64,000 bases of DNA. Source: Paenibacillus sp. sptzw28 (GTDB taxonomy: Bacteria > Bacillota > Bacilli > Paenibacillales > Paenibacillaceae). Made by a program: the position numbers and the translations under genes. The notes beneath the pieces were generated by a model, which did not search any database, had not been told where the DNA came from, and saw only the letters and a list, made by a program, of their open reading frames with translations. Of the stretch, positions 9,490-39,605 are shown one piece after another. Position 1 is the first letter of the stretch. Every line of letters begins with the position of its first letter. The DNA lies in the NCBI RefSeq assembly GCF_019550795.1, contig NZ_CP080545.1, positions 2,189,501 to 2,253,500 on the forward strand. Direction: 5' to 3'.

Positions 9490-10581
9490 CTACATACCTA
9501 TTTCATCTTCCCGAAGTGTCGCCATGGGGTGCAGGAATTGATGTTCGAGACGGTTTAGAACGATTCCTTCCTTCACTTTATTCACCCAATCCGGATTCAC
9601 TAATGCGCTTGTGCCAATCGCGGCTAACTCGGCTTCACCTGAGGCTAAAAGCTGTTCCGCCATTTCCGGGTCCCCGAGTTTGCCGTTTGCGATAACGGGC
9701 AGACCGCCGTAAGTCGCTGCGAGTTTGGCCAGCGTAGGCCCACCATTTGTGAATGCCGGCGCAAACGCCTTGTATTCGGTAGTATGAATGTAAGTTGGGC
9801 AAGCGGTACCGAGCTTTTCGAAGATGATTTTCGCATCGTTGATTCCGTTCGCCCATTTATGGTTGAAATCATTAACTTTGCCTTGCGATATGCGAACGCC
9901 TACCGTGTAATTTTGGCCCACAACGGATCGAATCCTATCCAGCAATTCCACGACGATTCGAATACGATTCTCCGTGGAACCGCCGTATTCATCGGTTCTT
10001 TGATTCGTGTATTTGGTAATAAATTGATCCAATAAATAACCGTTGGCGGCATGTAATTCGACCCCGTCGAATCCAACCTGTTTGGCGCGTTGTGCGGCAT
10101 GTGCGAAGTTATCAATCACCTGCCGGATATCTGATTTGCTCATCGCGTCTGGAACGGAATATTCTCCGCTGCCTCCGTGTTCTTCCAGCATTGTACCGAC
10201 CGGCTTGACGGCGGAAGGTGCTATCGGCTTAAATTCGTTATGCTGAACGAGGGCACCTGCGTGCATCAGTTGAGCGATTATTCGTCCGCCTTCACGATGT
10301 ACGGCTTCTACAACCGGCCTCCAGGACTCGGCCTGCTCTTTATCCGCAAGGCCGGGCTGATTCTTATAGCTTTGACTGTTCACTGAGTCCGGATAGATCC
10401 CTTCCGTTATGATAAGACCGAACCCTCCCTTGGCGAACCTTGTATAATAACGGACCATAAGTTGGTTCGCAAGGCCATTGCACTCTGCGCTCGTACGTGT
10501 CATGGGCGAGAGTACCGCTCGATTGTGGAGACGTAAGGAGCCTAATTGAAATGCGGATAAAAGCTTGGAATACGTAATCAT
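9490..10581 (-). CDS. NADH:flavin oxidoreductase, Old Yellow Enzyme family
   Basis: This 363-aa FMN-binding TIM barrel has L-H-N-R-A-V-L-S-P-M-T-R near the N terminus, G-V-E-L-H-A-A-N-G-Y-L-L-D-Q-F in the middle, and Y-G-G-S-T-E-N-R-I-R. These family motifs place FMN and the substrate-binding pair H-A-A-N. Members reduce activated C=C bonds of enones, nitro compounds and quinones. The frame can be extended to 10698, but AGGAGG lies seven bases before ATG 10581, giving the normal OYE length. It is transcribed divergently from the LysR gene, a typical regulator-target pair. Confidence 0.9.
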   Translation of the reverse strand: MITYSKLLSAFQLGSLRLHNRAVLSPMTRTSAECNGLANQLMVRYYTRFAKGGFGLIITEGIYPDSVNSQSYKNQPGLADKEQAESWRPVVEAVHREGGRIIAQLMHAGALVQHNEFKPIAPSAVKPVGTMLEEHGGSGEYSVPDAMSKSDIRQVIDNFAHAAQRAKQVGFDGVELHAANGYLLDQFITKYTNQRTDEYGGSTENRIRIVVELLDRIRSVVGQNYTVGVRISQGKVNDFNHKWANGINDAKIIFEKLGTACPTYIHTTEYKAFAPAFTNGGPTLAKLAATYGGLPVIANGKLGDPEMAEQLLASGEAELAAIGTSALVNPDWVNKVKEGIVLNRLEHQFLHPMATLREDEIGM

Positions 10582-10736
10582 TTGATAGTCCTCCTCAAAT
10601 ATGGGTGTGCGGTCGTTGTTCCAGCCGATGGTAAGTTGTTGTGGAAATGATTGTAACCCGGGTTGAAACATACTGTAAAATGATTGATAATGATACATGT
10701 ATTAAAAAAAATGATACCGAAGAATAAGGGGCACCT
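10582..10736. promoter_or_regulatory. Divergent promoter region, OYE gene / LysR gene
   Basis: These 155 bases separate the two start codons. They contain small dyads such as ATACATGTAT (10693-10702) and A+T-rich tracts. LysR proteins usually bind such shared regions. No consensus boxes are strong enough to name. Confidence 0.45.
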
Positions 10737-11600
10737 ATGGAATTAACGGATTTGAAAATCGTAATCGTAATTATGGAGGAAGGAAGCATATCGAGAGCGG
10801 CAGAGAAGCTGGGTTACGTGCAATCGAACGTCACTGCGAGGATCCGCAAGCTGGAGACGGAGCTTGGTATTCATCTCTTCAGCAGACATCCGAAGGGTGT
10901 AACCCCCACCGAGAAAGGGCTCACCTTCAGCAAATATGCTTTGGAAATTCTTCGCAAGACGGAAGAAGCTGTGATGGCGGTGAAAGAGCCGGAATATCCA
11001 TGCGGACCGCTTGCCATTGGAGTTGTGGAGACCATCGCATCCTCAGGTCCTTTTATCCAGGCGCTGTCGAAATTCCAACGACAATACCCCGAAGTTGCCT
11101 TATCGCTGGTTCCCGGAACATCACCGCAAAATTACGAGAATGTGCTGAGTCGTCAATTGGACGGCGCGTTCTTCACGGGGGACTTCGATACCTCCGCGCT
11201 GGAGGTAGAGGTTGAGATTCAAGATCAAGTTGTCTTGCTAACGGCAGCTGAGAATGAAACGTCAGAATACCCCAGTATCGAGGATGCCGCGTGGGTCGTA
11301 TTCCCAAAGGGCTGCCCTTTCAGGACTGCAGTTGAGGAATGGCTTCGTAGCAGGGGGGCGTCGAATACGAACATAATTGAAATAAGTACAATGGAAACGA
11401 TGCTGAGCTGCGTACGGGCAGGACTCGGCTTCGCACTAGTGCCCAAATCAGCTCTTGCCGGAGATAATGAATTGCTGCGTGTATATCCGGTTCCGGAACC
11501 GTATCAATACGCCACTACACGCCTGGTTCGTCGTAATGAGCAGTTCCGCAGCAAAGCATTCGCCGCTTTCGCGGAATGTGTGAGAACGACAGGGTTTTGA
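10737..11600 (+). CDS. LysR family transcriptional regulator
   Basis: This 287-aa protein has an N-terminal winged helix (residues about 1-60, with G-S-I-S-R-A-A-E-K-L and L-E-T-E-L-G-I-H-L-F) and a periplasmic-binding-like effector domain from about residue 90. The ATG is preceded by AATAAGGGG. It is divergent from the Old Yellow Enzyme gene and so likely controls it; the effector is unknown. It ends 35 bases from the convergent ada gene. Confidence 0.92.
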   Translation: MELTDLKIVIVIMEEGSISRAAEKLGYVQSNVTARIRKLETELGIHLFSRHPKGVTPTEKGLTFSKYALEILRKTEEAVMAVKEPEYPCGPLAIGVVETIASSGPFIQALSKFQRQYPEVALSLVPGTSPQNYENVLSRQLDGAFFTGDFDTSALEVEVEIQDQVVLLTAAENETSEYPSIEDAAWVVFPKGCPFRTAVEEWLRSRGASNTNIIEISTMETMLSCVRAGLGFALVPKSALAGDNELLRVYPVPEPYQYATTRLVRRNEQFRSKAFAAFAECVRTTGF

Positions 11601-11635
11601 AATACTTAGGACGATTGTTCCGATCAATCCGGATG

Positions 11636-12709
11636 TTAGTCTGAACTAGTTTTGGATGTTTGAACAAAATCGTATTTTTCATGATTTAGCAGCCATTGTT
11701 TGCGTGAAATCCCTCCACCGTAACCACCCAAATCGCCATTGGAGTTGATGACGCGGTGACAAGGAATTACAATGGCAAGCTGATTTGCGCCGTTTGCTTG
11801 AGCTATAGCACGATAAGCGTTTGGTTTTCCAACCGCTGCTGCAATCTCGGCATAGGATAGCGTTTCTCCTGGAGGGATTTGTATTAACTGCTCCCAAACC
11901 TCCTTTTGAAAAGGCGATCCCAAAAGAAATAACGGTGTTTTGAATTCTGTTAACTCGCCGTTAAAATAGCCGCTCAACTCACTTTCAATCGAACGGATCG
12001 GTGCCGTGTAACCCGGAATAATGGCTGATTTTGTTCTTAGTCTAAGGCGTTCAACCTCACGCTCCAAACCACGGCGGTCAACAAATTCGAGCAGATAAAG
12101 CGCTGTTTCATCCGCGATCGCTATCATTGGGCCGAGCCGTGTATCGAGCCACGATGCTTTTAAGATATTATGATGACCAAGCAGGGTTGGCGCTGCTCCC
12201 ATGATTCGTGAGAACGCATCCCTGAAGCCGCTGCTGGATTCATAACCGGTTGAAAGCTGGGCGTCGATTACGGGGTTTCCCGCTCTGATCTGTTTCAATG
12301 CGATTCCCATGCGCCGGGCTCGTGCATATTGAACAAATGTCATGCCAAAACGCTTTTTGAACTGGCGGCGCGCTGTTGCAGCATCGACGGACAGATTCCG
12401 AAAGTCTCTATCGGTCCATCGCTTTTCCGGATTCTCTTCGACGGCGCTAACAAGCTGCCGAACCAGCTCTGAAACGTGACCCGGATGAGAAAGCGGACGG
12501 CAGCGTTGACAAGGCCGGAACGAAGCCAGAAGTGCTTGCTCGGCAGTTTCATAAAACTCGCAATTCTCGAATTTTGGTTTTCTGGCGGGACATGTCGGGC
12601 GGCAGAACACGCCTGTTGTCTTGACCCCCACATAAAAGACACCTTCATATTCTGACTTCTTATCGATTAATGCCTGATAATATTCATGTTTGTTTTCGGT
12701 CGCAATCAT
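11636..12709 (-). CDS. ada: Ada: bifunctional transcriptional activator / methylated-DNA repair protein
   Basis: This 357-aa full-length Ada has three domains. The N-terminal zinc domain carries Cys36, Cys40, Cys67 and Cys70 (F-C-R-P-T-C-P, F-R-P-C-Q-R-C), which take a methyl group from phosphotriesters. An AraC-type helix-turn-helix region covers about 85-180 (R-R-Q-F-K-K-R-F-G-M). The C-terminal O6-methylguanine methyltransferase has P-C-H-R-V with acceptor Cys317. In B. subtilis these functions are split between AdaA and AdaB; here they are fused as in E. coli. AAGGAGG precedes the ATG. An MFS exporter lies 32 bases upstream on the same strand, so they may be co-transcribed. Confidence 0.93.
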   Translation of the reverse strand: MIATENKHEYYQALIDKKSEYEGVFYVGVKTTGVFCRPTCPARKPKFENCEFYETAEQALLASFRPCQRCRPLSHPGHVSELVRQLVSAVEENPEKRWTDRDFRNLSVDAATARRQFKKRFGMTFVQYARARRMGIALKQIRAGNPVIDAQLSTGYESSSGFRDAFSRIMGAAPTLLGHHNILKASWLDTRLGPMIAIADETALYLLEFVDRRGLEREVERLRLRTKSAIIPGYTAPIRSIESELSGYFNGELTEFKTPLFLLGSPFQKEVWEQLIQIPPGETLSYAEIAAAVGKPNAYRAIAQANGANQLAIVIPCHRVINSNGDLGGYGGGISRKQWLLNHEKYDFVQTSKTSSD

Positions 12710-12741
12710 TTTGTTCCTCCTTAACGAAACTTACTGAAATA

Positions 12742-13932
12742 TTAGTCTTGAAGCTGTAGTGTGCTTCCTCCGGCCTTTTCCCGCATATCTGAGCGGAATA
12801 GCATCAAAGAACAAGCAATGGCTGCCACGATTCCAATAGACCCGACCCAGGTAACAGATGATAAGGAGACATACTGCGCCGCCGCACCCCCTATTGCTGC
12901 CCCCGCAGACATGGATAATTGCATCATCGACTGATTGAATCCAAGTATCACACCGGAAGATTCCGGCTTAAGACGGATCATATTATACTGATGTGCCGGG
13001 CCGGATGACCAGCACGCGAACGACCACGCCATAAGGATGGCGAAAATCGGAATGAAATTCTCCGCCGCAGTTGTAAATGAGAGGGCTATCAATGCCGCCA
13101 AATGAAGCAGCATCCCCCCGATTAACGTTGAAGGAACGCCCCATTTGTCCGTGCTGTAGCCCCCGAATTTGGAGCCGATCAAGCTGGCGAGACCGAAAGC
13201 GAGTAAAGCGGCACTAAGCATCCTTTCATTTAATCCCGTAACCGTGAGAAGATAAGGAGAGATGTAGGTATAAGCGACTGAGTATCCGCCGAGCCAAAAG
13301 AAGGTTATGGATAATCCAAGCGCTATTTTGGTGTTTTTCAGCAGTGCGACCTGCTTACGTAAAGGTATGGGTACATCCCCTTTTGACCGCGGGATGGCCA
13401 GGAATAGAACAATCATTGCAAGGATTCCGAGTATCGCAATAAGTCCGAAAACCGATTTCCATCCAAAGGCCGCAGCTGCAATTCGCCCGAGCGGGACACC
13501 GATTATTAACGAGGCCGTGAATCCCATAATAATAATTGCAATGGAGCTGGCCTGCTTGCCCGCAGGTGAAATTCTTGCTGCAATTCCTAATGCCGTTACA
13601 ACAACCATTCCTGCACTTAAAGCCATGATAATGCGCGCGGCAACAAAAAGTCCAATCCCCGGCAGCGCATAAGAAAGGATATTGGCCAGCACGAATATTC
13701 CCAGTGAGTAAATGAGCAGCTTTTGCCTCTCTATGCTCGTAGTCAAAGCCATAAGAATGGGCGTTCCGACCGCATATACCAATGAAAATACAGTAATGAG
13801 TTGACCGGCAGCGGATATCGATATCTCCATCGTAACCGCAATTTTATCCAAAACACCCGAAATAATGTACTCGGAAGTCCCCACCAAAAAACTGACGACC
13901 GCCAAAAAGTAAATTCTCCATGTACTCGGCAT
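12742..13932 (-). CDS. MFS transporter (AraJ/YdhP-like drug or sugar efflux)
   Basis: This 396-aa hydrophobic protein has about 12 membrane spans and a typical DHA1-like N terminus (F-L-V-G-T-S-E-Y-I-I-S-G-V-L in TM1). The interdomain loop near residue 190 is charged. The substrate cannot be read. It lies directly upstream of ada on the same strand. From 13933 to 14075 I see only A+T-rich promoter-like sequence. Confidence 0.85.
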   Translation of the reverse strand: MPSTWRIYFLAVVSFLVGTSEYIISGVLDKIAVTMEISISAAGQLITVFSLVYAVGTPILMALTTSIERQKLLIYSLGIFVLANILSYALPGIGLFVAARIIMALSAGMVVVTALGIAARISPAGKQASSIAIIIMGFTASLIIGVPLGRIAAAAFGWKSVFGLIAILGILAMIVLFLAIPRSKGDVPIPLRKQVALLKNTKIALGLSITFFWLGGYSVAYTYISPYLLTVTGLNERMLSAALLAFGLASLIGSKFGGYSTDKWGVPSTLIGGMLLHLAALIALSFTTAAENFIPIFAILMAWSFACWSSGPAHQYNMIRLKPESSGVILGFNQSMMQLSMSAGAAIGGAAAQYVSLSSVTWVGSIGIVAAIACSLMLFRSDMREKAGGSTLQLQD

Positions 13933-14075
13933 GACCGCTCCGCTCCTATCCGCTTGTCAATTAACCAGCCTCATTCCGTTATCTGTCACTATTATATTTC
14001 TTTCATAAAATGACGCAGCCGAAAATCGTACATCGATTTTTTTTTCAACCGTTTTGTTGTTTGGATACCATCAAC

Positions 14076-14104
14076 AAAAACAGGCTGCCGTCATTGGCAG
14101 CCTG
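14076..14104 (-). terminator. Rho-independent terminator of the glycerophosphodiesterase gene
   Basis: On the minus strand CAGGCTGCC pairs with GGCAGCCTG around a 6-base loop and is followed by TTTTTG. It lies 31 bases past the stop of the gene at 14135. Confidence 0.85.
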
Positions 14105-14134
14105 CGCAGGTAAATTGAATCCAAATGCAAATCG

Positions 14135-14965
14135 TTATCCGTTAACCCGCGGAACATAATCAGGGTAATCGGTAATAATGCCGTCAACGCCAGCATCCAG
14201 AAGCGGCTGCACTTGCGACCGGTTCCGTACGGTCCAGGCCATGACGCCCATACCCAAGCGATGAACGCGTTCCACTAATTCGGCATTTACATAAGCCAGA
14301 TTCGGATTAATATAATCGGCATAAGTGCTAAACTCGGTCAGCATGGCATCGGTCAAGTGGTGGTAGCCGGAAGTAAGTACACCGACAGGTATATCCGGAA
14401 GAAGAGCATGAAATTTTTTGACGGATTCGAATTCAAAGGACTGCACAATGATTTTTGCGTTATTCGGCTTATCCATGTCACGATCCCTGAGTGCTGCCGC
14501 TACCTTCTCTTCAATTCCCGGATAGAGATAAGATGCTTTAATCTCGATCAAAATACCGATTCGACCCCTGTATGCATCCAAAACCTCCTCCAAAGACGGG
14601 ATCTTCTCGCCTTTAAATGCTTCAGAGAAGAAGCTGCCTGCATCAAGTTGTCTCAATTGGTCAAAGGTGAGGCTGCCGACCAGACCGGTGCCGTCAGTGG
14701 TACGGTCGACCGTCGTATCGTGAATAACGACAAGACGCCCGTCTTGGCTGAGCTGAACATCCAATTCCAAATAGTCCGCTTTCATCTCAACCGATTTCTC
14801 GAATGCAGCCATCGTGTTCTCCGGAGCGTACCCCGATGCCCCCCGATGGGCTACATTTACAAGCTTCTCTTCCTTCTGAATGGCTGCCGACGCTCCTCCT
14901 GCTTGGGCTGCCAGCATCCCCGCAGCAAGTAATGTCAAAACCGTTATTCTGCCTGGACGAATCAT
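14135..14965 (-). CDS. Secreted glycerophosphodiester phosphodiesterase
   Basis: This 276-aa protein of the GDPD family hydrolyses glycerophosphodiesters to glycerol-3-phosphate and an alcohol. An N-terminal signal peptide covers residues 1-27, with a likely A-S-A cleavage site. The catalytic signature A-H-R-G-A-S-G-Y-A-P-E-N-T follows near residue 40, then E-L-D-V-Q and V-I-H-D. The family C-terminal motif D-G-I-I-T-D-Y-P is present. A strong AGGAGG lies before the ATG, and the gene is monocistronic with its own terminator. It acts at the cell surface or outside. Confidence 0.9.
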   Translation of the reverse strand: MIRPGRITVLTLLAAGMLAAQAGGASAAIQKEEKLVNVAHRGASGYAPENTMAAFEKSVEMKADYLELDVQLSQDGRLVVIHDTTVDRTTDGTGLVGSLTFDQLRQLDAGSFFSEAFKGEKIPSLEEVLDAYRGRIGILIEIKASYLYPGIEEKVAAALRDRDMDKPNNAKIIVQSFEFESVKKFHALLPDIPVGVLTSGYHHLTDAMLTEFSTYADYINPNLAYVNAELVERVHRLGMGVMAWTVRNRSQVQPLLDAGVDGIITDYPDYVPRVNG

Positions 14966-15164
14966 TATTAATCTCCTCCTTTGAATTGAAATCGAACTAA
15001 TCTTAAAGGAGTTATGTTAACGCAGTATAAGGCTCATTTATTTTAAACATTAACGGGTAAGTGAATACATAGCGGTGGAAGAACAGTTGTACAAGACTTT
15101 CAACCCGGTCGTGGAAGTGCGCGGTAACCGGCCAAAGCCGGCTCAATTCATGTTAATAATTTGA

Positions 15165-30751: not shown

Positions 30752-31260
30752 TATTTCCCTCCATCCTTTTTTACAGCTAAAGGCGGCACGTATTCGCCTG
30801 GTCGTGCAATGTTCACATGGATATCATAATCGGTTTCGACCTGCCGGAACTGAGTGCCCCAGTTGTCCCGTGTCTGTTTCCAAATCTGAGGATATATTTG
30901 TTATAAAAAGCATCCGCATAGCCAAGAACGTCCGTATTGGTCTCTTTGTACCCGCGCAACCGTCTCCTTCGCCAATGGGGCAGAAATAAGCCCAGCCATT
31001 ACCGCCGCTTCTCCGATAACAATCGCGCCGACAATACTCACCGCTGCCCCCACTTGCTTCGGGAGCCGTACTCCCGCTTCGCGAAGCGCCTCAAACGTCA
31101 CTTCCATTATTAAAGCTTCGATAAGAGCCGGAAACGGCACCAATTCGTGGGCCGATGCGAAGCTAAGGATCAACTTTGTGGGCAGCATCTGTTGGTGAAA
31201 GGTCGTGATGGAGATATAAAAAGAAGGCAGGGTGAAAGCGGCAGTACCACAATGAACCAT
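30751..31260 (-). pseudogene. Fused remnants of a GerA-type germinant receptor operon (gerAA-like + gerAC-like)
   Basis: From 31260 downward the frame encodes a GerAA C-terminal piece: I-S-I-T-T-F-H-Q, V-P-F-P-A-L-I-E-A-L-I-M-E-V-T-F-E, L-R-E-A-G-V-R-L-P, V-G-A-A-V-S-I-V-G-A and I-G-E-A-A-V. It then breaks off near S-A-P-L. What follows is the C terminus of a Ger(x)C lipoprotein read in shifted frames: N-T-D-V-L-G-Y-A-D-A-F-Y, then after an extra AT in a TATATA run, P-Q-I-W-K-Q-T, N-W-G-T-Q-F and I-A-R-P-G-E-Y. The rest of gerAA, all of gerAB and most of gerAC are missing. This is a large internal deletion plus at least two frameshifts. Confidence 0.8.
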
Positions 31261-31433
31261 TGTTATAAACCGAAGAGATAATGAGATAGAGAGAGCGTTA
31301 TAGAGTTCCTAAAAGATGTAAGCGCTGCAATCGATGCACGTGTGATGTAAAGGCAGTTTGCAGCATGTTAGTTATATTTACAAACCGACAGAGGAGGCGT
31401 AATATACGATTCATGAATTGAAATATTTTCATC

Positions 31434-31612
31434 AAATCGCTGAGTTTCCGTTAAGGAAAGCGGGGGAACCATGTAATGACGGCTTTCGATGTGAGAGTCG
31501 ATAATCCGTCATTTGGGGTGAATCCTGGAGGAGCCAACTGACAAGGTTGCTTCTTCGGGTAGGGCTACTCTCACAGCCCGAATCCGGCAGCTAACCTCGT
31601 AAGTGTAGAAGG
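31434..31612 (+). ncRNA. c-di-AMP riboswitch (ydaO/yuaA class), first of a tandem pair
   Basis: All conserved blocks are present in order: AATCGCTGAGTTTCC, GCGGGGGAACC, TTGGGGTGAATCC, GGGTAGGGCTACTCTCA, then CCCGAATCCGGCAGCTAACC and CGTAAG. The block at 31576-31603 is identical over 28 bases to the second copy. In this class c-di-AMP binding turns expression off, usually through a downstream terminator, and one lies at 31679-31712. No coding sequence overlaps it. The stretch 31261-31433 upstream holds only promoter-like sequence. Confidence 0.93.
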
Positions 31613-31678
31613 ACAACATTCTGTTTCATTTCAGAATCTGGTTCTTCATTGTTGGGAGGATGATCTTGTGACTTTATC

Positions 31679-31712
31679 GGCCGCAGGGTAGATTCCCTAT
31701 GCGGTTTTTTTT
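31679..31712 (+). terminator. Terminator following riboswitch 1
   Basis: CCGCAGGG pairs with CCCTATGCGG (one bulge) and is followed by eight T. It separates the two riboswitches and is the likely expression platform of the first. Confidence 0.88.
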
Positions 31713-31719
31713 ATTCAGC

Positions 31720-31885
31720 AAACGTCTTTTTCGCTGAATCCCTCTAATAAAGGAGGGAACGGGGGACCCGAACGGATTGTCTTATAATCCATGGGGTGAA
31801 TCGCCCGGTTGCATGGCAACCAGGCGTAGGGCGACTCTCACGCCCGAATCCGGCAGCTAACCTCGTAAGCGTACCAGAGAGAGGC
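31720..31885 (+). ncRNA. c-di-AMP riboswitch (ydaO/yuaA class), second of a tandem pair
   Basis: It carries the blocks TCGCTGAATCCC, GAACGGGGGACCCG, ATGGGGTGAATCG, GCGTAGGGCGACTCTCACG and CCCGAATCCGGCAGCTAACC, then CGTAAGCG. The variable stems differ from copy 1 (for example GCCCGGTTGCATGGCAACCAGGC), so it is a diverged, complete aptamer and not a recent duplicate. It is followed by its own terminator and then the kdp operon. Confidence 0.93.
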
Positions 31886-31926
31886 AACTTTTTAACGTGA
31901 ATAGACACGGTTTTTTACTGTGCCTA

Positions 31927-31968
31927 GAAGCCGCGAGAAGAGTTCCTCTTCCAATGGCTTCTTTTTTG
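31927..31968 (+). terminator. Terminator following riboswitch 2
   Basis: GAAGCC / GGCTTC with an inner GAAGAG/CTCTTC stem, then six T. It ends 37 bases before the first gene of the kdp transcript. Confidence 0.85.
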
Positions 31969-32005
31969 TTGCCTACTCCTGAAAACCAAGGAGGAGAAAC
32001 GCGAA

Positions 32006-32416
32006 TTGCAAGATTTGATTTTGGTTTCGGCGCCGAATATTCGAGGCGAAGACTTTATCAGGCAACTGAAAGACAAGCGTATTCCATTTGCTGTAATTAC
32101 CCGCAATAAGGCGGAACATGAACGCATAATGACTCTTGGAGTAGAGCGCATCATAGCGGTAAATACAACCAAGGAAATTACATGGGCTGTTCCGGAGTTT
32201 CGGATCGGAAAGGTATATTTGTTTGAAAGCAGTCTTAACCTTTGCTGCCGGTATATACAAATATGCCGCAGCTGGACGACAAAGCCGATTTATGTCATAA
32301 CGGACAGCTGCAATCCGAGGCTCGTATACAAAGGGCTTGGCGCCAATTATGTCATCCATACCAGCAGTAACGATATCTCTTTCCTTATAACCGATGATCT
32401 GTTGTCAGATGCGTAA
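32006..32416 (+). CDS. Unrecognised Rossmann-like protein, first gene of the kdp transcript
   Basis: This 136-aa soluble protein starts at TTG with GGAGGAG ten bases upstream. The pattern is strand-helix-strand: D-L-I-L-V-S-A-P, a helix R-G-E-D-F-I-R-Q-L-K-D-K, P-F-A-V-I-T-R-N-K, E-R-I-M-T-L-G-V-E-R-I-I-A-V-N, then K-V-Y-L-F-E and K-P-I-Y-V-I-T. This resembles a small nucleotide-binding Rossmann or receiver-like fold, somewhat like the TrkA-N domains of potassium channels, but the glycine-rich G-x-G-x-x-G is absent. It lies between the c-di-AMP switches and kdpF, so a part in potassium or c-di-AMP control is plausible but unproven. I do not recognise a named family. Confidence 0.75.
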   Translation: MQDLILVSAPNIRGEDFIRQLKDKRIPFAVITRNKAEHERIMTLGVERIIAVNTTKEITWAVPEFRIGKVYLFESSLNLCCRYIQICRSWTTKPIYVITDSCNPRLVYKGLGANYVIHTSSNDISFLITDDLLSDA

Positions 32417-32428
32417 AGGAGGCTTAAT

Positions 32429-32539
32429 ATGCTTGACCTATATATGATTTTGCTGCTTGGCGGCGCTTTTACATTATTCTACGGTTTTCTATCCTGGTGC
32501 AGCCAAGTCATTGATGAGGCAGGTGGAGAGCAATTATGA
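32429..32539 (+). CDS. 36-aa membrane peptide upstream of kdpF
   Basis: It starts MLDLYMILLLGGAFTLF, has one transmembrane segment (residues about 4-24) and a short polar tail ending E-Q-L. AAAGGAGG precedes the ATG. Its stop overlaps the kdpF start (ATGA), so the two are translationally coupled. Similar short peptides occur ahead of kdpF in other Gram-positive genomes as far as I recall. It may help assemble the Kdp complex; this is inference. Confidence 0.7.
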   Translation: MLDLYMILLLGGAFTLFYGFLSWCSQVIDEAGGEQL

Positions 32540-32613
32540 TTGCAGTCTTGATTTTTACGTTATTTATTTTTCTTTATCTGGTTTATGCCTTGATTAATCC
32601 TGAAAAATTTTGA
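32536..32613 (+). CDS. kdpF: Potassium-transporting ATPase subunit F
   Basis: This 25-aa single-span peptide (M-I-A-V-L-I-F-T-L-F) ends L-V-Y-A-L-I-N-P-E-K-F. The A-L-I-N-P-E-K-F tail is the KdpF hallmark. It stabilises the KdpABC complex. It overlaps the preceding peptide gene by four bases and lies 29 bases before kdpA. Confidence 0.9.
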   Translation: MIAVLIFTLFIFLYLVYALINPEKF

Positions 32614-32642: not shown

Positions 32643-34322
32643 ATGGGCATTTTGCAAATAGTGATCGTCTTGGCGGTGATTGTTTTACTAGTCAAACCGC
32701 TTGGGACGTACGTATATCATGTTTTTTCAAACGAGCCGAATCGCTTGGATAAACTATTCGGACCTTTCGAACGCATCCTGTATACGCTGATTGGCCTCAA
32801 GCAGCGAGCCGGCATGACATGGAAAAAGTATGCGCTCAGTTTTCTGCTAATGAATATCGTACTTGTTGCAGTCAGCTATGTGATTTTGCGTTTGCAGCAA
32901 GTGCTGCCGTTGAATCCTAACGGTATCGATAACATGGAGCAAACGCTGACGTTTAACACAGTCATCAGCTTCATGACGAATACAAACCTGCAGGATTACA
33001 GCGGCGAGACGGGGCTCTCTTACTTTTCACAGATGATCGTTATCATGATGATGATGTTCACATCGGCGGCGACGGGTTTCTCGGTTGCGATCGCTTTTGT
33101 TCGCGGTTTGACGAGCAAAGGGGAGACAATCGGCAACTTCTTCGAAGACTTCGTGAAGGCGCACACGCGGATTTTTATTCCGGCTGCCCTCATTCTCACG
33201 CTTGTAATGGTGGCGCTTCATGTGCCTCAGACGCTGGAACCGACGCTTAGCGTGACAACGCTTGAGGGCGCAGCGCAGCACATCGCGATCGGCCCGGTTG
33301 CATCGTTAGAGTCCATCAAGCATTTGGGCACGAACGGCGGCGGTTTCTTCGGAGTCAACTCGGCGCATCCTTTCGAAAACCCGAGTCCGCTGACGAATGT
33401 AATCGAAATTTTATCGATGTGGGCGCTGCCTGCCTCCTTGCCTTATACCTATGGTTTGTTTTCCAAAAACCGCAAGCAAGGCTGGGTCATATTCGGTGCA
33501 ATGATGTCCATGTTTATCGTATTCCTTGTCATGATATATGCTGCAGAACTACGCGGCAACCCGGTGCTGAACAAGCTTGGCATCGACGCCTCACAAGGCA
33601 GTATGGAAGGGAAAGAGGTCCGTTTCGGCATTGCGCAATCGGCGCTATTCACGGCCGTTACGACCGCCGCAACAACCGGTTCGGTCGATAACATGCACGA
33701 CACGCTCACGCCGATCGGCGGACTCGGAGCGCTTGCTCAAATGATGCTCAACTGCGTATTTGGCGGCAAAGGCGTCGGCCTTGTGAACATGCTGATGTAT
33801 GCGATTTTGGGCGTGTTCCTTGCCGGGCTCATGGTTGGCCGGACGCCGGAGTTCCTGGGCCGTAAAATTGAGCCGCGAGAGATGAAGCTGATCGCCGTCG
33901 CGATTCTGACGCATCCGTTCATTATCCTTGTACCGACGGCTATCGCGTTCTTGACTGATCTCGGAAAAGGATCGATTACAAATCCCGGATTTCACGGCAT
34001 TTCACAGGTGCTTTATCAGTATGCATCTTCCGGGGCGAACAACGGCTCCGGCTTCGAGGGGCTTGCCGATAACACGCCGTTTTGGAATATTTCAACCGGG
34101 ATAGTCATGCTGCTTGGCCGGTATGTTTCCATGATCGCTATGCTGGCCGTGGCCGGTTCGCTAGTCCGCAAGCAGTGGGTGCCGGAGACGGTTGGGACGT
34201 TCCGGACGGACAATGGCTTGTTCATGGGTATCTTGATCGGAACAGTATTGATTATTGGAGCGCTGACGTTCTTGCCTGCTCTGGTCCTCGGGCCGATCGC
34301 AGAGCAATTGACACTTCGCTAA
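32643..34322 (+). CDS. kdpA: Potassium-transporting ATPase subunit A
   Basis: This 559-aa channel-like subunit of the high-affinity KdpFABC potassium pump has about ten membrane spans and four selectivity-filter loops, for example T-N-T-N-L-Q-D-Y, G-T-N-G-G-G-F-F and N-N-G-S-G-F-E-G-L. Full length and intact. AGGAGG precedes the ATG. kdpB follows after 24 bases. Confidence 0.97.
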   Translation: MGILQIVIVLAVIVLLVKPLGTYVYHVFSNEPNRLDKLFGPFERILYTLIGLKQRAGMTWKKYALSFLLMNIVLVAVSYVILRLQQVLPLNPNGIDNMEQTLTFNTVISFMTNTNLQDYSGETGLSYFSQMIVIMMMMFTSAATGFSVAIAFVRGLTSKGETIGNFFEDFVKAHTRIFIPAALILTLVMVALHVPQTLEPTLSVTTLEGAAQHIAIGPVASLESIKHLGTNGGGFFGVNSAHPFENPSPLTNVIEILSMWALPASLPYTYGLFSKNRKQGWVIFGAMMSMFIVFLVMIYAAELRGNPVLNKLGIDASQGSMEGKEVRFGIAQSALFTAVTTAATTGSVDNMHDTLTPIGGLGALAQMMLNCVFGGKGVGLVNMLMYAILGVFLAGLMVGRTPEFLGRKIEPREMKLIAVAILTHPFIILVPTAIAFLTDLGKGSITNPGFHGISQVLYQYASSGANNGSGFEGLADNTPFWNISTGIVMLLGRYVSMIAMLAVAGSLVRKQWVPETVGTFRTDNGLFMGILIGTVLIIGALTFLPALVLGPIAEQLTLR

Positions 34323-34346: not shown

Positions 34347-36377
34347 ATGAGCACGAATCGAAGACCGATGCTATCCTCTTCTATCGTACAGGGTGCGGTA
34401 AAAGACAGTTTTATCAAATTAAATCCGATCACGATGTTGAAAAATCCGGTCATGTTTGTAGTTGAAGTCGGTACGCTTGTCGTACTGTTGATGACCGTTT
34501 TTCCATCCTATTTCGGCACGGGACACAATGTCGGGTTTAATTTGACGGTATTTGTGATCCTTCTGTTTACGGTGTTGTTCGCCAATTTTGCCGAGGCACT
34601 CGCTGAAGGACGAGGTAAAGCGCAAGCAGATTCGCTGAAGAAATCGAAAAAAGAAATGACGGCCAATAAGCTGGCCTTGGGAAGCGTGAAAGTCGTGTCA
34701 TCCACCGAGCTCCGCAAAGGAGACATCGTCATCGTCTCGCAAGGTGAAATGATACCTGGAGACGGAGAAGTAATCGAAGGTCTCGCTTCCGTTGACGAGT
34801 CGGCCATTACCGGCGAATCTGCCCCGGTCATCAAGGAGGCCGGCGGCGACTTTAGCTCCGTGACAGGCGGAACCCGCGTCGTCAGCGATCAAATCAAGGT
34901 GCGCATCTCAAGCGACCCCGGGGAATCGTTCATTGACAGGATGATCTCGCTGGTGGAAGGCGCCAAGCGGCAGAAAACGCCGAACGAGCTGGCGCTGAAC
35001 ACGCTGCTTACGAGCTTGACGCTCATTTTCCTGATTGTTGTCGTCACGCTCGCTCCGATTGCGAAGTATCTGAATATTGTACTTGATGTCCCTGTCCTTA
35101 TCGCTTTGCTCGTCTGCCTTATCCCGACCACGATCGGCGGACTGCTGTCGGCGATCGGGATCGCCGGCATGGACCGCGTCACGCAGTTCAACGTACTCGC
35201 GATGTCCGGTAAAGCGGTCGAAGCCGCAGGCGACATCAACACGATGATTCTGGACAAGACGGGCACCATCACCTTCGGAAACCGGATGGCCGGCGAATTC
35301 ATTCCGGTCGGCGGCGAAAGCGTCGAAACCGTAGCTGAATGGTCTGCCATCAGTTCAGTGAAGGACGAGACTCCGGAAGGCCGCTCTGTGCTGGAGCTGA
35401 TGAAGAAACAAAATTTGAGCTTTCAGGAGTCGCTGGCATCTGGCGCGGAGTTTATCGAATTCAAAGCGGAAACCAGAATGAGCGGGGTCGATTTGGAGGG
35501 AGGCCGCAAGGTCCGCAAGGGCGCGGTCGATGCGGTGAAGAAATGGGTGTCGGCGCAGGGCGGTTCCATCCCGGGCGACCTCGACGACAAAGGTAACGCG
35601 GTTGCATCCGAGGGCGGGACACCGCTTGCCGTTGCCGTGGATAACCGCATCTTCGGCCTGATCTATTTGAAGGATACCGTAAAGCCGGGCATGCGAGAGC
35701 GGTTCGACCAGCTTCGCAAGATGGGCATCAAGACGATCATGTGTACCGGTGATAATCCGCTTACGGCTGCGACAATCGCGCGCGAAGCCGGGGTGGACGA
35801 TTTTATCGCAGAAAGCAAACCGGAGGACAAAATCGCTGTCATCCGCCGCGAGCAGGCTGAAGGCAAACTCGTCGCGATGACCGGTGACGGCACGAATGAC
35901 GCGCCGGCGCTGGCTCAGGCCGACGTCGGGCTTGCGATGAACAGCGGCACCGTCGCCGCGAAAGAAGCGGCCAACATGGTTGATCTGGATTCCGACCCGT
36001 CGAAAATCATCGAGGTCGTGTCCATTGGCAAGCAGCTGCTCATGACGCGCGGGGCGCTGACAACGTTCAGCATCGCCAACGATATCGCGAAGTATTTTGC
36101 GATCATCCCCGCCATGTTCACACTCGCGATCCCGCAGATGAACGCATTGAACGTGATGCATCTGGGCTCGCCGATGTCGGCCATCCTATCGGCGCTCATT
36201 TTCAACGCCGTTATTATACCGCTTCTCATTCCACTGGCGATGAAAGGTGTCAAATATAAACCGATGAGCGCCTCGAAGCTGCTTAGCCGGAACTTGTTTG
36301 TCTATGGTCTCGGCGGCGTGGTCGTACCGTTTATCGGTATCAAGCTCATTGATATGATCGTCCACCTTTGGGTTTAA
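34347..36377 (+). CDS. kdpB: Potassium-transporting ATPase subunit B (P-type)
   Basis: This 676-aa P-type ATPase energises KdpA. The phosphorylated Asp303 is in D-K-T-G-T-I-T. The actuator motif T-G-E-S lies near residue 156, and G-D-G-T-N-D-A-P is in the P domain. All key residues are present. GATGAGG lies ahead of the ATG. Confidence 0.97.
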
Positions 36378-36399: not shown

Positions 36400-37008
36400 A
36401 TGAATAAATCGGTAAGCCTGCCGGAACCGACCGGAGGTTCCTATGTAGTTGTTGCGGTAAGAGCAAGCATCGTGTTTATCGTACTCTGCGGCATTCTGTA
36501 TCCGCTGGCGTGTACAGGTCTTGCTCAGCTGTTCATGCCTTACCAGGCGAACGGCAGCTTGATCAAGAACGCTGCAGGAGAGGTCGTCGGGTCCGAGCTC
36601 ATCGGACAGAGCTTTACGGATCCGAAATATTTTCAGGGCCGCGTATCCAGCATCGGTTACAACGCGGGGGCGTCCGGTTCGAACAACTATGGGCCATCCA
36701 ATCCGGATCTGCTCAAGCGAACGAAAGATTCGATCGAAGCTTGGAAGAAAGAGAACCCGGACGTCCCGGTAAGCAAGCTGCCAATCTCGCTCATAACAAA
36801 CTCAGGTTCGGGGCTTGATCCGGACATCACGCCGGAATCTGCGAGCGTGCAAATTCCCCGGATCAGCAAACTGACGGGGATACCGGTACTGCGGCTGGAA
36901 GAGCTCGTCCGCAAGCAAACGGTTGGACGTGATTTGGTCATCTTTGGTGAACCCCGTGTAAACGTACTGAAATTGAATATCGAGCTGCAGCATTTAGTGG
37001 GTAAATAA
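36400..37008 (+). CDS. kdpC: Potassium-transporting ATPase subunit C
   Basis: This 202-aa protein has one N-terminal membrane span (about residues 18-42), then a periplasm-type domain with [13 protein letters not shown] and [13 protein letters not shown]. The D-I-T-P-E-S-A motif and V-N-V-L-K-L-N end are typical. AAAGGAAGG precedes the ATG. It is followed by a strong hairpin. Confidence 0.96.
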
Positions 37009-37055: not shown

Positions 37056-37253
37056 ATGGGAGTGAGAAGCCGGGTGATTTTTGTATTTTTATTTATTTGT
37101 TCGTTCATGGTCCTGCAAATGTTGTTTCTTTTGTTTGGAAAAGGATTCGGAGCTCAGCGTAGCCTGGTTATAAAAAAGTGGATATTCTTCCTCGGCATTG
37201 CACTTATTCTTTCATCATTTATGAATTGGGTTCTGTTAAAAACAAGCGGATAA
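37056..37253 (+). CDS. Small two-span membrane protein in the kdp operon
   Basis: This 65-aa protein has TM1 at about residues 6-28 and TM2 at about 41-60, joined by a basic loop (G-A-Q-R-S-L-V-I-K-K). The ribosome binding site is poor because the G-rich run lies in the hairpin, so expression may depend on RNA folding. It sits between kdpC and the KdpD-like gene (21 bases). No family recognised. Confidence 0.55.
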   Translation: MGVRSRVIFVFLFICSFMVLQMLFLLFGKGFGAQRSLVIKKWIFFLGIALILSSFMNWVLLKTSG

Positions 37254-37274: not shown

Positions 37275-39605
37275 GTGAAAAGCTACAGACGAAAAACGCC
37301 GGAGGAAATATTGCATTCGATCTCAAAGCTTCATTGCGGCAGACTAAAGATTTACATCGGTGCGGTGAGCGGTACAGGAAAGACCTATCATATGCTGCGG
37401 GAAGGTCAAACACTAAAGGACCAAGGCGTCGACGTCGTCGTATGTGCGGTTTCTACGATGAGGCGTCCCGAAACGGTCGAACAGCTCGGTACGCTTGAGC
37501 GCATACCGAGTATACATTGGTTCAAGGATAGCGTTGAAAAGAAAGATCTGAACGTGGAAGCGCTGGTTGAGCGTAATCCTGAAGTCGTTCTCGTTGACGG
37601 GCTTGCCCACCGTAACCGGCCGGAAGCGATGTTTCCGTCCCGGCTTGAAGATATTAAATACCTGCGGAGCCGGGGAATCAGCGTTATAACAACCGTCAAT
37701 GTGTATGAGCTTGAGGGCGTGACGGAGCTTGCCCGGAATTTGACCGGGATTGAAGCGGAAGAGACGGTTCCGATTGAAACGCTGGAGCTTGCGGATGAAG
37801 TGCGGCTCATCGATGTGACACCGGAGACGATTTTGAAACGGATGAATGAAGGGAATTTAAGCAGCCTGAAGGATGCTTCTTTACTGAAGAGGGGAAACCT
37901 CGGGAAGCTTAGGGAGCTGGCGCTTCGTCTTGTGGCGGAGGGGGTCAACGATTCACTTGAGAAATACCGGGAGGAGCAGGGGCTGATCGGTCCATCCGGC
38001 GCTTCGGAACGAATTCTGGTATCCGTCCAATACCATTGGAACGGTTCGATATATATCCGTCGCGGGCAGCAGATAGCCAAACGGCTCAACGGCGAGCTGC
38101 TCGTTGTTTCTCTTGTCAAGCCGGGCCTCGCACTCGGCAAAGAGCAGATTACATTTAAACGTTCCATTCTCAAATTGACGGAAAAAATAGGGGCCCAGTT
38201 TGAGGAGCTTCTGCTAACCGGCAGACGCCATTTGCCGAAAACGCTAGTGAAGTATGCGATGGAGCGTGGCGTTACCCGCATCGTACTCGGCCATTCCAAG
38301 CACAGCCGCTGGCAGGAATTTTGGCAGGGCTCGATCGTGAACGGTATATTAAAGAAAATCAAGAACGTCGACGTCTTCTTCGTCGCCGACCGGGCGGAAC
38401 AGGAGGGTGAGCGCATCCTTCCGACCAAAACCCGGATCGAGAAACCGATTCCTTATAAGCGGCTGAGCGAGAAAGAAGTGGAGCAAAAGATCGAACGTAT
38501 CCGGCGCGGCACATTCAAAGTGTACATCGGCGCGGCGCCGGGCGTCGGTAAAACGTATACAATGCTCCGCGAAGGAAATGTGCTGCTGCGTAAAGGCATC
38601 GACGTGGTTATCGGTCTGCTCGAGACGCATGGGCGGAAGGAGACAGCCGCTCAAGTGGGGGAGCTGCACACGATACCGCGGGCCGTGATTGATTACAGGG
38701 GCACCTCACTCAATGAGATGGACGTTCCCGCAATACTCGAGCGGAATCCCGAGGTGGTGCTCATCGACGAGCTGGCGCATACGAACGTGCCGGGGAGCAT
38801 GAACAAAAAGCGATATGAGGACGTGCTTCAAATACTGGATGCGGGCATCTCGGTCATCTCAACGATGAATGTCCAGCACTTGGAGAGCTTGAACGATGCT
38901 GTCGAGCAAATAACCGGCGTCCGCGTCCGGGAGACAGTCCCTGACAATATCCTCCGGCTCGCGGATGAGGTGGAGCTGATTGACGTCGCGCCGAAAGCGC
39001 TGCAGCAGCGCATGCAGGAAGGCAGGATCTACGCCCTTGACAAGGTAGAGCAGGCGCTCGGAAACTTTTTTAAGACAGGGAATCTGATCGCGCTGCGCGA
39101 ACTGGCTCTGCGGGAAATTGCTGACGATGTTGACGAGCGACTCGAAGCCTGGGAACGAAATGGTTCCCTGCGCGGTCCATGGCGAAGGAGAGAGAGTATC
39201 TTTGTTGCGATTACGCTAAGCTCCAATGCCGACCGATTAATCAGGCGGGGTTTCCGGATCGCATATAGACTTAAAGCGGAATGGCATGTGATGTATGTCC
39301 ATCCCGCCGCTGCGCTCCCGGATAGACTCAAGCAGAGAGTGTGCGTGGTCCGGGAATTGACGGAGCGGCTGGGCGGAAGCTTCGAGCTTGCGCATGCCGG
39401 GTCGCAGCGCGAAGTGCCGACAGTGCTCCTCGCCAAAGCCGACTCCCTCAAATGCACGCAAATGATTATAGGACAATCCACAAAGGGATTTTGGCAATCG
39501 CTCCTTCGAAAGTCCGTTGTCAAAACGATTTTACGGCTTGGTCGTCATATGGATGTGCTCGTTGTCGCTGATTTCGATCCGAATGTCCGTATTAATGAAG
39601 ATTAG
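37275..39605 (+). CDS. Tandem KdpD sensor-head protein without kinase domain
   Basis: This 776-aa soluble protein is made of two copies of the KdpD N-terminal module. Copy 1 (about 9-385) has P-loop G-A-V-S-G-T-G-K-T (29-37) and a Walker-B-like D-G-L-A-H (108-112), then a USP-like domain. Copy 2 (about 395-770) has P-loop G-A-A-P-G-V-G-K-T (419-427) and the canonical D-E-L-A-H (498-502), then a second USP-like domain. There are no transmembrane helices, GAF domain or histidine-kinase region, and no kdpE follows. KdpD USP domains bind c-di-AMP in Staphylococcus. The start is GTG behind AGGGGGCG. Copy 1 has lost the Walker Glu (Gly109) and may be a degenerate regulatory half. Confidence 0.9.
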   Translation: MKSYRRKTPEEILHSISKLHCGRLKIYIGAVSGTGKTYHMLREGQTLKDQGVDVVVCAVSTMRRPETVEQLGTLERIPSIHWFKDSVEKKDLNVEALVERNPEVVLVDGLAHRNRPEAMFPSRLEDIKYLRSRGISVITTVNVYELEGVTELARNLTGIEAEETVPIETLELADEVRLIDVTPETILKRMNEGNLSSLKDASLLKRGNLGKLRELALRLVAEGVNDSLEKYREEQGLIGPSGASERILVSVQYHWNGSIYIRRGQQIAKRLNGELLVVSLVKPGLALGKEQITFKRSILKLTEKIGAQFEELLLTGRRHLPKTLVKYAMERGVTRIVLGHSKHSRWQEFWQGSIVNGILKKIKNVDVFFVADRAEQEGERILPTKTRIEKPIPYKRLSEKEVEQKIERIRRGTFKVYIGAAPGVGKTYTMLREGNVLLRKGIDVVIGLLETHGRKETAAQVGELHTIPRAVIDYRGTSLNEMDVPAILERNPEVVLIDELAHTNVPGSMNKKRYEDVLQILDAGISVISTMNVQHLESLNDAVEQITGVRVRETVPDNILRLADEVELIDVAPKALQQRMQEGRIYALDKVEQALGNFFKTGNLIALRELALREIADDVDERLEAWERNGSLRGPWRRRESIFVAITLSSNADRLIRRGFRIAYRLKAEWHVMYVHPAAALPDRLKQRVCVVRELTERLGGSFELAHAGSQREVPTVLLAKADSLKCTQMIIGQSTKGFWQSLLRKSVVKTILRLGRHMDVLVVADFDPNVRINED

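Follow-up and report, generated by a model that had tools for sequence, protein, structure and literature searches.

A tandem KdpD-USP protein with dissimilar halves beside a riboswitch-preceded kdp operon in Paenibacillus sp. sptzw28

The window, a 64,000-nucleotide stretch of the Paenibacillus sp. sptzw28 genome (contig NZ_CP080545.1, positions 2,189,501 to 2,253,500), contains a kdpFABC operon for the Kdp potassium pump. The operon is followed 3' by a gene for a 776-residue protein in which a KdpD domain and a USP domain occur twice, on the same strand as two upstream cyclic di-AMP (c-di-AMP) riboswitches (Table 1). Pfam finds KdpD (PF02702) twice as well as Usp (PF00582), in the order KdpD-USP-KdpD-USP, and none of the membrane or histidine-kinase families (transmembrane PF13493, DHp, CA) in this protein. 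NF038185 (“KdpD-like non-kinase potassium sensor”) also matches twice; the summed score of 769.7 bits exceeds its cut-off of 550 bits, while the single halves, at 451.6 and 325.9 bits, stay below it. Aligned with each other over 377 residues, the halves share 39% identity (E-value 6e-81), which indicates homology and not chance. An initial annotation, made from the letters of this DNA alone, had described a doubled sensor module lacking membrane spans and a kinase part, with a P-loop kept in half 1 and D-G-L-A-H there where half 2 reads D-E-L-A-H; the domain searches and the self-alignment agree with it. The two motifs lie at residues 108–112 and 498–502, and Walker A is present in both halves. 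Chance or a frame error as the origin of the doubling is ruled out by the single open frame and by the length of all 120 listed proteins (767–793 residues).

Residue counts out of 120 refer to tandem proteins, namely the best 120 of 7,789 proteins at E 0.001, with the window protein among them (effective number 45.6). Locus comparisons cover the best 80 of 303 related loci, which are kin to one another, and the tree set comprises 48 KdpD-USP halves or rows (N- and C-halves of tandem proteins, single-copy forms and full-length KdpDs).

A short KdpD/USP module was described in 2024 as a serine kinase whose action on the serine of the KdpB TGES motif switches this subunit off (PMC11018627). According to that paper, Walker A, Asp109, Glu110 and the W39/R190 pair are required for kinase activity, and E110A alone abolishes it in E. 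coli KdpD. Both halves of the tandem protein have the Walker A motif G-x5-GKT (GKT in 120/120 first halves; GKT in 117 and GKS in three second halves). The Walker B Asp-Glu is present in half 2 (D498-E499), with Glu in 119 of the 120 copies. Half 1 alone departs from it: its Glu position holds Gly in 106 copies, Glu in four and other residues in ten. In half 1, Lys and Thr of Walker A and Asp of Walker B (D108 in the window protein) are retained in 120/120. The tree set gives the same division, with the Walker B Glu in 31/31 C-half, single-copy and full-length rows versus 0/13 tandem N-halves. At the positions of the adenine-contact pair (W39/R190 in E. coli), both halves have Tyr and Arg, with Tyr in place of Trp as in most tree-set rows. 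Half 2 is the closer of the two to the short KdpD of D. radiodurans (47.8% identity, against 34% for half 1), which follows kdpC there and was used for this measurement instead of the D. geothermalis form, and also to E. coli KdpD (40% against 32%). By sequence, half 2 is a canonical short KdpD. Its putative target, the KdpB TGES motif, is kept in 70/70 covered related loci and in the KdpB of the window, where the serine codon is at 34818–34820. The proposal in the initial annotation of one catalytic and one regulatory half is supported by the loss from 116/120 first halves of a Glu that is essential in E. coli (PMC11018627).

The conservation of the two halves is reciprocal, the KdpD domain being tighter in half 2 and the USP domain tighter in half 1. 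Mean entropy of the KdpD domain is 0.85 bits in half 1 versus 0.66 bits in half 2 (216 paired columns, p 0.002), and that of the USP domain 1.05 versus 1.54 bits (129 paired columns, p 4e-6). In 31 paired columns, each half is conserved yet with different residues. The USP1 loop QYHWNGS is near-invariant (Q, Y, N and S in 120/120, G in 117, W in 116 and H in 112), and the G-S phosphate loop is present in 120/120 first halves, versus G in 67/120 and S in 98/120 second halves. In the structure predicted by AlphaFold2 (AF2), USP1 packs on USP2 in the manner of tandem USPs.

The strict core (A/G/C)xSxSx2N, taken for S. aureus from PMC8214093, was found at the aligned USP loop in 0/120 proteins in either half; anywhere in the chains it occurs in 1/120, outside the loop, and in 0/48 tree-set rows. 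Since the single-copy and full-length KdpDs of the tree set also lack it, its absence is weak evidence, and the motif discriminates poorly here. A relaxed core, [AGC]x[ST]x[ST], matches USP1 in 0/120 and USP2 in 70/120. The equivalents of S. aureus residues 242, 244, 246, 248 and 249 are S250, Q252, H254, N256 and G257 in half 1 and A645, T647, S649, N651 and A652 in half 2. At the place in USP2 that likely corresponds to Y271, 116/120 proteins have Tyr or Phe. These positions were set by the published motif spacing and an ungapped loop alignment that held no S. aureus sequence, and not by direct alignment, because 7ji4 was not found when each USP was searched by sequence against solved structures. 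If the tandem protein senses c-di-AMP, USP2 would by sequence be the more canonical candidate, and USP1, whose pocket is under tighter constraint, may accommodate a different nucleotide or bind c-di-AMP in a different manner. Of the c-di-AMP control at both RNA and protein level envisaged in the initial annotation, the RNA level is supported, with two RF00379 matches upstream, whereas c-di-AMP stays a putative ligand of the USP domains.

The tandem form was initially regarded as unfamiliar, but it is order-wide and no rare curiosity. NF038185 is matched in 21/22 genomes of the genus (own included), with two tandem proteins in 13/22, and in 151/198 genomes of the order. Among the order matches listed, the best-match frames span 768–853 residues, with four exceptions: G103 is longer (891), whereas G113 (673; it lies at the end of a contig), G153 (577; its frame holds a stop) and G211 (409) are shorter; seven matched genomes have weak matches only (E 1e-43 or worse), and G026 has a single match at E 9e-99. 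In a phylum sample, 85/398 genomes match the N-half profile. Beyond the order, the tandem arrangement occurs in G570, G251 and G536, the last with a very divergent first half, while G541 has two adjacent, unfused single genes that both keep D-E. The remaining phylum matches are single short forms (~377–409 residues), full-length KdpD (~900 residues), or USP-part or partial matches only.

The 13 N-halves and the 13 C-halves in the 48-member tree fall into two separate clades (100/98 for the former, 100/99 for the latter), a pattern most simply explained by a single old duplication and fusion. A clade uniting N- and C-halves is 10.3 log units worse and not quite rejected (p 0.053). The first half of the G536 protein clusters among the N-halves (99/96), and a C-half clade that takes in G536 is not rejected (p 0.28), so the tandem may have had a single origin; the G536 first-half branch measures 3.27, and such long branches make its placing unsure. 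The G541 pair is a separate lineage (94/86, not starred). The stem branch of the N-half clade is long (0.79), and the end branches of N- and C-halves are similar in length.

Two complete riboswitches lie in series at 31428–31886 of the window, each with its own likely terminator. The terminators were recognized by eye; a strict terminator scan of 31250–32100 reported none, including both of these stems. The 25-residue product that precedes kdpA presumably is KdpF, which it resembles. Between the riboswitches and kdpA lies orf136, whose AF2 model (predicted local distance difference test score, pLDDT, 93.2) has a Rossmann-type RCK_N fold; the best Foldseek match is 3fwz TrkA-N (E 1.2e-5), followed by GsuK RCK and KtrA. 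Against Pfam, orf136 gave nothing at default settings and a sub-threshold DUF4218 match at E 0.005 only, and no TrkA_N match at E ≤ 1 was obtained for 3/3 orf136 proteins tried. It is matched by tblastn in 53/80 related loci and carries a conserved stretch, FE-x-S-x-x-L-x-C-R. The Kdp pump may have an additional regulator in orf136. A small frame between kdpC and the tandem gene, tm65 (37056–37253), was dropped as a part of the operon, as it was matched in 0/80 loci and belongs to no Pfam family.

Table 1. Features of the kdp locus and of the tandem KdpD-USP protein, in positions of the window
Feature	Position	Strand	Basis and remarks
c-di-AMP riboswitch aptamer 1	31428..31620	+	Rfam RF00379, 89.5 bits, E 1.3e-19
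Likely intrinsic terminator, riboswitch 1	31676..31714	+	Stem + 8 T, by eye; RNAfold -13.8 kcal/mol
c-di-AMP riboswitch aptamer 2	31722..31886	+	RF00379, 96.5 bits, E 1.4e-21
Likely intrinsic terminator, riboswitch 2	31924..31972	+	Stem + 6 T, by eye; RNAfold -17.4 kcal/mol
orf136, lone RCK_N/TrkA-N-fold protein	32006..32416	+	Between riboswitch and kdpA; AF2 + Foldseek
Hydrophobic small open reading frame, 36 residues	32429..32539	+	Directly before probable kdpF
Probable kdpF, 25 residues, ...YLVYALINPEKF	32536..32613	+	Likeness to KdpF
kdpA	32643..34322	+	PF03814, 792.7 bits
kdpB	34347..36377	+	TIGR01497; TGES = residues 155–158
kdpC	36400..37008	+	PF02669
Tandem KdpD-USP protein, 776 residues, GTG start	37275..39605	+	Open reading frame; Pfam; NCBIfam
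Half 1 KdpD domain, residues 20–235	37332..37979	+	Walker A GAVSGTGKT (29–37); Walker B D108, G109 replacing catalytic Glu
Half 1 USP domain, residues 244–373	38004..38393	+	Loop QYHWNGS (252–258); G-S phosphate loop (352–353)
Low-confidence linker, residues 374–391	38394..38447	+	pLDDT <50, block means 43 and 32
Half 2 KdpD domain, residues 411–624, canonical by sequence	38505..39146	+	Walker B D498-E499
Half 2 USP domain, residues 640–768	39192..39578	+	Variable ligand loop

The genome itself (6.1 Mb, one contig) has one KdpA, two genes with diadenylate-cyclase domains and eight c-di-AMP riboswitches by Rfam, all 8 of which are recovered by our script pattern. No other KdpD domain was found above cut-off in this genome (one sub-cut-off match reached 23 bits), nor was the KdpD membrane domain PF13493, and none of the 52 places matched by a KdpD-type histidine kinase query extends into the first 220 residues of the query, its membrane part. 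In support of the earlier view, these searches turned up no KdpD-type histidine kinase in the genome and no full KdpD elsewhere in it; KdpE was not sought by name.

The 80 related loci contain kdpC in 73, kdpB in 71 and kdpA in 69 cases; the script pattern detects at least one riboswitch within 2.5 kb upstream in 47 of the 69 kdpA loci and two in 25, these pattern positives not being individually confirmed by Rfam. An Rfam check added riboswitches in L140 and L148 and found none in 18 other loci tried, including L073, the closest named relative. A four-way count covers 64 loci, leaving aside 16/80, of which 11 lack kdpA and 5 could not be scored because of a contig end. The kdp genes of L096 and L117 are on the opposite strand, and these two loci were scored riboswitch-positive by hand. 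A riboswitch only is present in 35 loci, a split pair of KdpD-type histidine kinase and KdpE downstream only in 13, both in 12 and neither in 4. By tblastn, the separate kinase and KdpE thus lie downstream of the tandem gene in 25/64, and all 17 riboswitch-negative loci of the count are also Rfam-negative. The Fisher p-value of 4e-4 is too small, because these loci are the top 80 of 303 and kin to one another. In L131 (12297–14532), the split pair lies directly 3' of the tandem gene and consists of a protein with DUF4118, GAF_3, HisKA and HATPase_c and a KdpE-like receiver/winged-helix regulator. Riboswitch and KdpDE are stated to be mutually exclusive in PMC6488665, with which the 12 loci that have both are at odds; in L110, however, the riboswitch lies at a distance of 2.4 kb and may belong to a different gene. 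A tandem protein that stays constant while riboswitch and split KdpD/KdpE are exchangeable argues for a post-translational job.

A DUF445 gene (415 residues) lies between kdpC and the tandem gene in the P. tyrfis locus L079 (8709–9956), and in several other loci the interval at this place is equally large.

Tandem genes also occur in loci without kdp genes (L084, L093, L123, L124, L143 and L149, around 9600–15000). All six of these orphans have the riboswitch pattern ~270–400 bases upstream, and downstream of each lies at least one Pfam-confirmed amino-acid ABC importer gene (a solute-binding protein in five, a permease in L124). The surroundings of the half 2 Walker B motif are altered in some orphans, to D-N in L149, DELPH in L084 and L123, and DELAS in L093. 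A DUF445 gene is upstream of the orphan in L093 by Pfam and, by likeness, also in L084, L123 and L124. In L095 and L119, orf136 and the tandem gene stand behind a riboswitch without kdpA.

We consider it probable that the tandem protein is a two-headed atypical serine kinase of the KdpD type, in which half 1, a pseudokinase and sensor, tunes half 2, which silences the pump. Its job is likely serine phosphorylation of KdpB and not transcriptional sensing. The substrate of half 2 would be the serine of the KdpB TGES motif, Ser158 here and Ser162 in E. coli, and its phosphorylation would shut the pump once potassium is abundant. Half 1, still holding its ATP-site residues, would act on half 2 through its fixed USP pocket packed on USP2, and transcription would be set separately by the two serial c-di-AMP riboswitches or, among certain relatives, by the split KdpD-type histidine kinase and KdpE. 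Several points weigh against this account. Neither USP loop has the strict S. aureus motif, and it is the conserved USP1 that lacks the relaxed match. The interdomain confidence of the AF2 model is low (predicted template modelling score 0.51, mean pLDDT 73.4), the Glu is still present in 4/120 first halves, and the conservation statistics come from the best 120 of 7,789 proteins, with an effective number of 45.6. Kinase activity is a prediction from sequence for tandem proteins of any kind, and KdpB is perhaps not their sole target, since orphan copies without kdpABC exist.

A reading in which half 1 is a mere built-in dimer partner is less likely. KdpD-USP modules would dimerize via their USPs, the fusion would make up for the dimerization that went with the kinase part, and USP2 would remain the site of c-di-AMP sensing. 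The USP1-USP2 packing of the model favors it, as do the relaxed core in USP2 (70/120, versus 0/120 in USP1) and the Tyr or Phe at the likely Y271 position. However, the ligand and G-S phosphate loops are near-invariant in USP1 and variable in USP2, and a mere scaffold need not retain Walker A and Asp108 in 120/120. It is improbable that the whole protein serves purely as sensor or scaffold, with no activity as a kinase: Asp-Glu of the half 2 Walker B in 119/120, Walker A throughout and the target motif in 70/70 covered loci speak against this, even though activity is known for no tandem form and the L149 orphan has D-N. More improbable still is an active half 1 with another substrate and another catalytic residue. 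The retained Walker A and Asp108 would allow it, and the six orphans behind a riboswitch pattern and before importer genes hint at wider targets, but the acceptor-activating position is Gly in 106/120, E110A alone kills the activity of E. coli KdpD (PMC11018627), and the gene neighborhood of the orphans is perhaps mere adjacency. That half 1 is a functionless, decaying duplicate, as the lost Glu, the somewhat less conserved KdpD1 domain and the long stem of the N-half clade (0.79) might suggest, is scarcely credible given a USP1 better conserved than USP2, similar end branches of N- and C-halves and both halves kept in all 120 listed proteins.

The two-headed kinase shares with the short KdpD/Usp serine kinase of the D. 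geothermalis type (PMC11018627; NF038185) the KdpD and USP domains, the lack of a membrane and histidine-kinase part and the place beside kdp genes; it differs by having two modules per chain, the first without the catalytic Glu and with a different, fixed USP loop. The kdp operon of B. thuringiensis, as presented in PMC6488665, similarly has a c-di-AMP riboswitch with termination before kdp and an N-terminal-only KdpD downstream, and its authors found no kdpE; that KdpD is a single module of 365 residues, in contrast to the tandem KdpD, two riboswitches and orf136 of the window. The full E. coli KdpD/KdpE system has the same N-terminal KdpD-USP module as each half, and the window protein lacks the transmembrane, GAF, DHp and CA domains of that KdpD. 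UspE, Rv2623 and TTHA0350 have a USP1-USP2 pair like that of the AF2 model, but the USPs of the window protein are separated in the chain by a whole KdpD domain. Joint control by a riboswitch and a short KdpD has already been described for some Bacillota (PMC11018627); what is added relative to the text of that paper is the two-headed form of KdpD. Searches of open-licence PubMed Central turned up no account of a tandem KdpD-USP protein, a check that did not extend to the supplementary data of PMC11018627.

More tentatively, and as a possibility we rate below even, one ancient duplication may have given rise to a pseudokinase-kinase fusion, in which a catalytically dead, ATP-holding half with a new ligand pocket (QYHWNGS) gates its active twin by allostery. 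Silencing would then depend jointly on ATP, as a measure of energy, and a second messenger, with the paired riboswitches acting on the same pump at RNA level. Where orphan copies have a riboswitch of their own, this pseudokinase-kinase device may serve another transporter. These results suggest that a large bacterial order runs the Kdp pump with a two-headed regulator for which no description was found. The tandem form would represent a natural separation of the parts of KdpD, with catalysis kept by one half and the sensor by the other, and control of the kinase by USP thereby becomes directly testable by half swaps or mutations.
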